Source of the DNA: a virus
DNA length: 25,727 nucleotides
Reading direction: 5' to 3' (one strand)
IMG/VR virus record: IMGVR_UViG_3300032676_000512
Location: 1-25,727 of that record
The position numbers and the translations under genes are program-made. A model generated the notes under the pieces. The model had not been told where the DNA came from. It was given only the letters and a program-made list of their open reading frames with translations, and made no database searches. Positions 208 through 7,436 of this stretch are shown one piece after another (the stretch's first letter is position 1; the number at the start of each line of letters is the position of its first letter).

Positions 208-371
208 TAAGTGCTTACGACACAATGTTTTGGATGGTTGTAATCTCTACGATTACGTGTTCGGTGGCTATGATAGCGTATGCGATTGTTTGGATAATGG
301 AGTTCACCCATGCAATCAAAAAGCGACGCATCAGAAACCAAGCGGTCAAATTCGCCATCGGACGTTTCTAA
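204..371 (+). CDS. Small single-span membrane protein (55 aa)
   Basis: An unrecognised 55-residue protein. A strong Shine-Dalgarno AAGGAG (190-195) lies 8 bases before the ATG, which overlaps the stop of the nuclease gene. Residues about 8-32 are almost entirely hydrophobic (FWMVVISTITCSVAMIAYAI), followed by a basic tail with KKRR and several Arg/Lys. This predicts one membrane span with the positive tail on the cytoplasmic side. Function unknown; small membrane proteins of this sort are sometimes lysis, superinfection or anti-host factors, but nothing here decides between them. The 3' end overlaps the next small gene by 62 bases. Confidence 0.65.
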   Translation: MISAYDTMFWMVVISTITCSVAMIAYAIVWIMEFTHAIKKRRIRNQAVKFAIGRF

Positions 372-447
372 GAAAGCCAAGAAAAAGGGAGTGCATAAAC
401 ACCCCCATCCTTGGAGAGTATTACCACCAGTGTGGGGTAAGAAATGA
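310..447 (+). CDS. Small basic protein (45 aa), overlapping gene
   Basis: A 45-residue frame starts inside the preceding gene, in another frame. GGAG (299-302) is 7 bases before its ATG, an ideal spacing, which is why I accept it despite its length. It is rich in Lys, Ser, Pro and His (KKAKKKGVHKHPHP in the middle), with no hydrophobic segment and no recognisable domain. Its TGA (445-447) overlaps the ATG at 444. Unknown function; a nucleic-acid-binding or disordered peptide is possible. An accidental frame cannot be excluded. Confidence 0.45.
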   Translation: MQSKSDASETKRSNSPSDVSKKAKKKGVHKHPHPWRVLPPVWGKK

Positions 448-824
448 AAACCCAGATAGAAGGTTACTCAGATTTAGGAAGCCACTTGAAACGTGTCTTC
501 GGATACATCGACGTGGAAGAGATTGTTTCCGGACAGTCATCCATCGCAAATACAGTTACGGAGGTTACTACAATGAACAATCAAGTTACTGATTCGACGG
601 CATTTGAAATCGCCACACTCGCGCTCATGAATCAGCGCGTCTACAAACGTGAAGCAGAAGAATTGCGAACAAAGGTCTCTCTGCTTGAAGCGGAGATCAT
701 CAGGCTTAGGGCTGATAACAGCAAGCTGGCTACCGAGTCCTACGAAAAAGCTGGTGCGATAGACAAGCTGAACTGGCTGATTCAGAAGCAAGCGGCACGA
801 ATGGCTAAAGATGGAAATAAGTAA
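444..824 (+). CDS. Small coiled-coil protein, start uncertain (444 or 573)
   Basis: The frame from 444 gives 126 residues. An in-frame ATG at 573 is preceded by GGAGG (560-564) at 8 bases and would give 83 residues. The 444 start overlaps the preceding stop by ATGA, as is usual in this cluster, but its Shine-Dalgarno is weak. The extra N-terminal stretch contains the 41-base reverse-complement copy of helicase DNA (469-509), so it may be leader rather than protein. The common part is a charged helical protein with heptad-like Leu/Ile spacing (AEELRTKVSLLEAEIIRLRA), predicting a coiled coil. No enzyme motif. The TAA overlaps the next ATG (TAATG at 822-826). Confidence 0.7.
   Translation: MKTQIEGYSDLGSHLKRVFGYIDVEEIVSGQSSIANTVTEVTTMNNQVTDSTAFEIATLALMNQRVYKREAEELRTKVSLLEAEIIRLRADNSKLATESYEKAGAIDKLNWLIQKQAARMAKDGNK
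469..509 (+). repeat. 41-bp reverse-complement copy of helicase gene segment
   Basis: Bases 469-509 match the reverse complement of 6650-6690 at 40 of 41 positions; the one mismatch is at 476. The match stops abruptly at both ends. Because both loci lie in rightward genes, RNA from this segment would be antisense to the helicase message. Confidence 0.9.
560..564 (+). promoter_or_regulatory. Strong Shine-Dalgarno for internal start at 573
   Basis: GGAGG sits 8 bases before ATG 573, inside the frame opened at 444. It is better than anything before 444 and argues that at least an alternative product starts at 573. Confidence 0.5.
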
Positions 825-1104: not shown

Positions 1105-1274
1105 CCGACGTGCTTATCTCAATCAAAGAACTTGAAGAGATGCGCCGCACGATTGATCAGTTGCGCGAACGATACGCAACGGATCTTGAAGCGTGGCGCG
1201 AGAACAATCGCTATCACGCGGCTGAGATCGAACGATTGAAAGAAATCATCCGCGCACGGGAGAATGAGGTATGA
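1101..1274 (+). CDS. Small coiled-coil protein (57 aa)
   Basis: ATG 1101 overlaps the preceding stop and follows a purine-rich AAGGGGG (1090-1096). The 57-residue product (MTDVLISIKELEEMRRTIDQ at its start) is one long amphipathic charged helix ending IIRARENEV. No catalytic motif; function unknown. Its end contains a 14-base sequence (1247-1260) repeated at the end of the gene at 2008-2199. Its TGA overlaps the next ATG (1271-1274). Confidence 0.6.
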   Translation: MTDVLISIKELEEMRRTIDQLRERYATDLEAWRENNRYHAAEIERLKEIIRARENEV

Positions 1275-1297
1275 ACAATCTAATTAAAGAACTTGCT
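1264..1297 (+). repeat. Direct repeat, copy 1 (34 bp)
   Basis: This segment spans the end of one gene and the first codons of the next. It recurs at 1403-1436 with a single mismatch. The repeat carries the start codon and first nine codons of the 51-residue gene. Confidence 0.9.
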
Positions 1298-1426
1298 GAA
1301 CAAGCTGGGTTTGGTTGGGATGATAAATATCATTGGTATGTGGGCAGTCGCCAGATGGAAAAGTTCGCCGCCCTTGTTGCTGCCCATGAGCGTGAGGCGT
1401 GGATGAGGTATGAACAATCTAATTAA
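1271..1426 (+). CDS. Small conserved phage protein (51 aa)
   Basis: Starts MNNLIKELAEQAGFGWDDK and contains KFAALVAAHEREAW near residues 31-44. I recognise this arrangement (short helix, then a FAALVAAxEREA helix) from small uncharacterised proteins of many phages of beta- and gammaproteobacteria; no activity is known to me. GGGAG (1258-1262) is 8 bases upstream and the ATG overlaps the preceding stop. The last codons (RYEQSN) lie inside the second copy of the 34-bp repeat in another frame, so the C terminus may have been created by that duplication. Confidence 0.65.
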   Translation: MNNLIKELAEQAGFGWDDKYHWYVGSRQMEKFAALVAAHEREAWMRYEQSN

Positions 1427-1436
1427 AGAGCTTGCT
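1403..1436 (+). repeat. Direct repeat, copy 2 (34 bp)
   Basis: Copy of 1264-1297 with one mismatch, 139 bases downstream. It recreates a start codon at 1410 followed by the same first nine codons. Confidence 0.9.
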
Positions 1437-5852: not shown

Positions 5853-7436
5853 ATGGAAATTGTAGACGATATCGCAGTGCGTTTGACACTGCCCTCGGAG
5901 TATGCCGATAGAGTTCTCAGATGGGTTGGCAGGAGCGCGTTAGCGCAGGATTTGGGTTCAACCAAGTCTATCGTGGTCTATTGGGATCAGCGCGAAACAG
6001 AATACCTGACCAGAGTTGCAGATGAACTTCGACCCAACATGGCGTTGGATATTCCTTCACCATTGTTGAGAGATTACAAGTGGCCCGGTGTCCACAAGCC
6101 TTTTGATCATCAACGAGACACAGCGTCATTCTTGAGTATTCGTAGTAGAGCATTCTGTTTCAATGAAGCAGGAACCGGTAAGACTTCCGCCGCCATATGG
6201 GCTGCGGATTACCTAATGAATTTAGGATTGGTGAGACGGGTACTCGTAGTGTGCCCGTTGTCCATCATGTTCACGGCATGGCGCGATGAAGTGTTCAAAG
6301 CCGCGATGCACCGTTCGTGTTTCGTTGCTTACGGGTCGAACGAAAAGCGTAGAAGAATCATTGCTCACCCATACGAGTTCACCATTATTAATTATGATGG
6401 AGTCAACATCGTCAGTGATGCGATAGCCGACGCCAAGTTCGATTTGATCATTGTCGATGAGGCTAATGCTTACAAGACTGTGAGTACCAAACGCTGGCGT
6501 ACCTTGTCCAAGTTGATAACGCCATCTACAAGATTGTGGATGATGACAGGTACACCAGCATCGCAATCGCCAATGGACGCGTTCGGCCTTGCACGTCTTG
6601 TATCACCCTTGCGCGTACCAAAGTATTCCACAGCATGGCGCGACACCGTGATGTATCCGAAGACACGTTTCAAGTGGCTTCCAAAATCTGATTCTAAGGA
6701 AAAGGTGTTTCATGTCTTGCAGCCAGCGATTCGGTTTAACAAGAACGACTGCCTCGACCTGCCACCTGTAACTTATCAGACTAGAATTGTTCCCTTGACA
6801 GTGCAAGCGCAAACATACTATCGCAAGCTGAAGCAAGAGATGTTAATACAAGCTGTTGGCGAACAAGTCAGCGCAGTCAATGCCGCTGCCAAACTAAACA
6901 AGCTGTTGCAGATATCTGGCGGTGCAACATATACAGATGGTGGCAACGTCATTGAATTCGACATTGGGCCTCGCTTCAAAGCACTGCGAGAAGTGCTTGA
7001 CGAAACGTCCAACAAAGTAATAGTGTTCGTTCCCTATCGGCACACCATCACTGTCGTTGCGGAGTACCTTGATAACGAGGGCTTCACAAACGACATCATC
7101 ATGGGTGACGTTACCCCAAAAGAACGCGCAAACATCATCACCAAATTCCAGACACAATCGGATCCTCATGTGTTAGTGATTCAACCGCAGTCAGCTTCTC
7201 ATGGTGTCACACTCACCGCTGCGGATACGGTTGTGTTCTGGTCTCCAGTCATGTCGGTCGAAACATACTTACAATGTATCGGTCGTATTGATCGAGTCGG
7301 ACAGAAGAACAAGATGACTGTTGTTCATTTGCAAGGCTCGGAAGTAGAGCGTCGTGTATACGACATGCTCAATAGTAAAGTAGATAGTCATAACAAGTTA
7401 ATTGACCTGTACAAGCAGGAGTTGGAGGCAGAGTGA
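5853..7436 (+). CDS. SNF2-type superfamily 2 DNA helicase/translocase
   Basis: A 527-residue ATPase with the SF2 helicase motifs in order: Walker A AGTGKT (K110), motif Ia VVCPLSIMFTAW, motif II D202-E203-A204-N205 (DEAN instead of the usual DEAH), motif III TGTPASQS, motif V SHGVTL and motif VI QCIGRIDRVGQ near residue 475. Motif VI is the SNF2 form. Phage members of this family are thought to move along DNA in replication, recombination or repair. The ATG at 5853 has only a poor Shine-Dalgarno (TAGG) and follows the structured gap, so its translation may be regulated. Bases 6650-6690 (residues about 266-280) are duplicated in antisense at 469-509. GTGA overlap with the next gene. Confidence 0.9.
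   Translation: MEIVDDIAVRLTLPSEYADRVLRWVGRSALAQDLGSTKSIVVYWDQRETEYLTRVADELRPNMALDIPSPLLRDYKWPGVHKPFDHQRDTASFLSIRSRAFCFNEAGTGKTSAAIWAADYLMNLGLVRRVLVVCPLSIMFTAWRDEVFKAAMHRSCFVAYGSNEKRRRIIAHPYEFTIINYDGVNIVSDAIADAKFDLIIVDEANAYKTVSTKRWRTLSKLITPSTRLWMMTGTPASQSPMDAFGLARLVSPLRVPKYSTAWRDTVMYPKTRFKWLPKSDSKEKVFHVLQPAIRFNKNDCLDLPPVTYQTRIVPLTVQAQTYYRKLKQEMLIQAVGEQVSAVNAAAKLNKLLQISGGATYTDGGNVIEFDIGPRFKALREVLDETSNKVIVFVPYRHTITVVAEYLDNEGFTNDIIMGDVTPKERANIITKFQTQSDPHVLVIQPQSASHGVTLTAADTVVFWSPVMSVETYLQCIGRIDRVGQKNKMTVVHLQGSEVERRVYDMLNSKVDSHNKLIDLYKQELEAE
6650..6690 (-). repeat. Source locus of the 41-bp inverted copy
   Basis: This coding segment of the helicase (VMYPKTRFKWLPKS region) has a reverse-complement near copy at 469-509. 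The helicase frame is intact through it, so this is probably the original and 469-509 the copy. Confidence 0.9.

Follow-up and report, generated by a model that had tools for sequence, protein, structure and literature searches.

The window analysed here (the whole 25,727-nt stretch of IMG/VR record IMGVR_UViG_3300032676_000512) carries on its + strand a cluster of early genes and, further downstream, a 527-aa SNF2/DEAD-type DNA helicase gene (5853..7436; Pfam SNF2-rel_dom 4.9e-18, Helicase_C 5.2e-17). In the early cluster, a 45-aa gene (310..447, +) ends with a TGA that overlaps the ATG at 444 (ATGA) of an orphan early ORF of 126 aa (444..824, +), whose frame has the highest codon-usage score of the six. 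An internal start in the same frame would give an 84-aa version (573..824, +) and is preceded by a strong Shine-Dalgarno sequence, GGAGG at 560-564. The 126-aa ORF contains a 42-nt reverse-complement copy of helicase codons (468..509, +), which is read in frame as SDLGSHLKRVFGYI, codons 9-22 of the ORF. The corresponding segment inside the helicase gene (6650..6691, +) encodes MYPKTRFKWLPKSD.

When 468-509 was compared with the reverse complement of 6650-6691 within the window, 41 of 42 positions were identical (BLAST E about 1e-14), with 6140 nt separating the two arms. The sole mismatch falls at 476, where the early copy has A in place of the T that a perfect match to the helicase would give; this difference leaves the helicase residue unchanged (Pro, CCA vs CCT) and gives Phe vs Leu in the early ORF. 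Outside the pair, identity was 17/60 in the left flank and 19/60 in the right flank, and local alignment scores placed both flanks at background, within the range of shuffles. Since the flanks have no further similarity, the ends of the copy are sharp. A larger, decayed inverted copy around 468-509 was looked for and not found. This is the only inverted pair of such quality in the window and in the whole 61-kb genome, and the match far exceeds chance. The initial annotation had described the same repeat one base shorter, with 469-509 antisense to 6650-6690 at 40/41 positions; its coordinates and orientation were correct, and its statements that the ends are sharp and that chance is excluded agree with these results.

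The helicase segment aligns without gaps with about 80 related helicases and keeps the FKW.P motif common to them. Judged from these alignments, the helicase copy is the original and the early copy at 468-509 is derived from it.

A search with an exact 28-nt probe found three further IMG/VR contigs with the early copy. Two of these, IMGVR_UViG_3300022602_000006 (60,992 nt) and 3300032675_000057 (39,611 nt), have both copies in opposite orientation; in the third, 3300032562_001280 (10,740 nt), the early copy is present and the contig stops before the helicase. Each of the three contigs reads through the left and the right border of the early copy, and in the sequence that it shares with the window there is no difference (100% identity). 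Four records in all share the arrangement exactly, three of them bearing other IMG metagenome numbers, and their complete identity at the sequence level suggests one phage population. An assembly or amplification chimera had been offered as one origin of the early copy, and amplification artefacts do typically include small inverted joins. However, this option is contradicted by the recurrence of the exact arrangement in the three further contigs (independence of the samples being assumed), and a chimera would normally be expected to leave one join, whereas here a short insert has both flanks continuing. A chimera is very unlikely, and the copy is real and fixed in the sampled population. The 60,992-nt contig also has identical 102-nt ends (L106 1-102 and L109 891-992), and its record is classed as linear. 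The end overlap suggests a circular or circularly permuted map, and the phage genome is probably complete in this contig, at about 60.9 kb.

Two further origins were considered and rejected. The first is that the inverted repeats serve as a switch that recombines or inverts the 6.1 kb lying between the arms, which would be in keeping with a 42-nt inverted pair of 98% identity that flanks early genes and the polymerase. However, inversion would cut the helicase gene, the orientation is the same in all records spanning both copies, and the 61-kb genome gave no match to a resolvase/invertase (PF00239) or a tyrosine integrase (PF00589), which leaves a switch highly improbable. The second is that the copy is the product of a reverse-transcriptase system (DGR or retron) or a CRISPR-like spacer, either of which could place a short copy of coding sequence elsewhere. 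Here the genome has no RVT_1 (PF00078) match, which does not agree with a diversity-generating retroelement; flanking repeats are absent; and the copy is inverted, with a single change and no adenine-mutation pattern. The probability of such an origin is close to negligible.

The arrangement was also not seen in related phages, where the initial annotation had proposed to look for it. When 78 relatives (helicase identity at least 50%, upstream sequence at least 5 kb) were searched, none had an antisense helicase match of more than 20 nt, the longest being 20 nt. Only three inverted pairs were detected at E 1e-4 in 2.0 Mb of related loci. Two of these are 21-22 nt long, and the third, a 45-nt pair whose arms are 57 nt apart, lies right at the beginning of a contig and has the look of a fold-back artefact. 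No inverted copy comparable in size and distance was found in those 2.0 Mb, whereas direct short copies are far commoner (65, mostly local), and direct copies of 21-50 nt are common in these phages. On these comparisons, the arrangement is lineage-specific, and its orientation and distance are unusual.

The region around the early copy has few counterparts. In the syntenic relatives L115 and L116 other genes occupy its position, and the contig of another relative, L095, begins at window base 618, just past it. Protein searches with the host ORF, a degenerate DNA search with the upstream gene, and degenerate DNA and sub-domain searches with the helicase segment together gave, for this region, the same phage and L095 only. 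A scan of genome contigs found only helicases of 50-66% identity. A homologous empty site without the insert was not found; the source is conserved in relatives and the copy is absent in the 78. The event at 468-509 may have been an insertion or a replacement. L095 itself (1-1215) matches parts of 618-1399 and 2168-2362 of the window at 78-92% DNA identity, and beyond this shared early cluster no similarity was found to the window polymerase or helicase, which marks a sharp mosaic border.

The initial annotation placed the copy in a leader before the strong Shine-Dalgarno sequence of the start at 573. That site is indeed strong (-10.2 kcal/mol, vs a moderate -6.0 kcal/mol before 444), but the leader is doubtful: the frame that opens with the ATG at 444 runs through the copy and is in frame with the ATG at 573, so 468-509 need not be a leader. 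The 42 nt of the copy are free of stops and add up to 14 whole codons, and by codon usage the frame over 444-572 outranks the other five, whether or not the copy is counted. The ORF at 444-824 had no match in Pfam, PHROG or phage searches, and no relative of its N-terminal part was found. Given that residues 59-126 are 84% conserved in L095, the downstream part is a real gene. The copy probably lies in a translated ORF, with translation from 444 being what we infer.

It was also proposed that the copy acts as an antisense regulator in trans. An early rightward RNA over 468-509 would pair with the helicase mRNA at 6650-6691 and lower helicase, by RNase III cleavage or blocked elongation, either early or in superinfecting genomes. 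The RNAs could indeed pair as described, both loci being on the + strand with a predicted duplex of about -72 kcal/mol, and the extent of complementarity is what an antisense RNA would need. The one mismatched base does not alter the helicase protein, and phage antisense RNAs are known, such as OOP (cII mRNA, RNase III) and STnc6030 (superinfection exclusion) (PMC12197685). However, the pairing is not conserved among the 78 relatives. The fold of the region is slightly weaker than that of shuffles (z +0.7), the segment folded by itself is unremarkable (z -0.4), and an Rfam search gave no match. Consensus scans found 4 promoter-like matches against a shuffle mean of 3.7 and 4 terminator-like matches against 2.1 in shuffles, neither a clear excess, the terminator-like ones being sited elsewhere (the nearest at 387-417, - strand), and no promoter or terminator match frames 468-509 on the + strand. 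The target lies mid-gene, about 800 nt inside the helicase coding sequence, the closest known RNAs (OOP, sar, STnc6030 and aQ) are not 6 kb from their targets, and the segment is probably translated. These results leave the proposal without positive support. The complementarity and the shared strand are the only facts that favour it; a regulatory role is possible and unsupported, and we consider it improbable. It is, if anything, less probable that one mutation equipped the phage with an antisense element that acts in trans against the phage's own replication helicase and serves as a newly arisen regulator or as a check on superinfection. If the pairing were active, it would mean that one step is enough to create an antisense regulator.

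The explanation that we favour, with good though not full confidence, is that a template switch over a long range placed an inverted copy in an orphan early gene, where it is read as 14 extra codons. In a recent, lineage-specific mutation, 42 nt of the helicase gene would have been copied as their reverse complement into an early gene 6.1 kb upstream of the source, with a template switch by the polymerase, or illegitimate repair of a similar kind, as the probable mechanism; alternatively, 33 nt would have been copied after priming by an 8-nt match. The copy starts with the 8 nt TCAGATTT; next come the single mismatched base and a run of 33 exact bases. Across the genome, TCAGATTT is found only one time on each strand. 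This pattern fits short-match priming followed by a mismatched base and, equally, a 42-nt copy with one later substitution. Replication template switching yields reverse-complement copies (PMC8794818), and the near-exact match with sharp ends is what such an event would leave. Template switches described in the literature found are mostly short-range, with tens to hundreds of nt involved (PMC7954356); the arms here are 6140 nt apart, a distance that only a long-range variant could match. Among the three explanations listed in the initial annotation, a small inverted copy by template switching is the best fit. Because the insert keeps the frame open, its main present effect is probably that 14 codons are added in the N-terminal region of an early protein that evolves fast. 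Further counterpoints are that inverted copies of such size and distance are rare and that the strong site before 573 could make 444-572 untranslated. The sequences directly show the copy, its direction, its occurrence in four records and absence from relatives, and the open frame; we infer both the mutational mechanism and the absence of an RNA function.

Other repeats were also observed. A 34-nt stretch at a gene start (1264..1297, +) is partly copied at 1403..1436 (+), and the repeat spans a gene end and the start of the next gene. L095 has only one copy, with a sequence that agrees with that at 1403-1436; the early cluster has thus seen other small duplications or exchanges. A 21-nt unit stands twice in exact tandem (1466-1507) inside a small ORF with the frame kept, and in the late region a 139-nt direct repeat of 95% identity (G001 29979-30117 and 30684-30822) lies within a 970-aa ORF.

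The early copy is a well-documented case of a short inverted copy that came to lie 6 kb from its source in a phage genome with the frame kept, and it shows a route by which orphan early phage genes can acquire codons. Template-switch mutations (PMC8794818, PMC7954356) differ from it in that their source lies within hundreds of nt rather than 6.1 kb away, and the switch points here lack an ancestral state for reading. They resemble it in being short reverse-complement copies of tens of nt with sharp ends. The phage antisense RNAs lambda OOP, P22 sar and BTP1 STnc6030 (PMC12197685) are characterised RNAs with shown effects, whereas the element described here is known from sequence alone, sits 6 kb from its target and faces the middle of a coding sequence. 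What it has in common with them is long, near-perfect complementarity to a phage mRNA.
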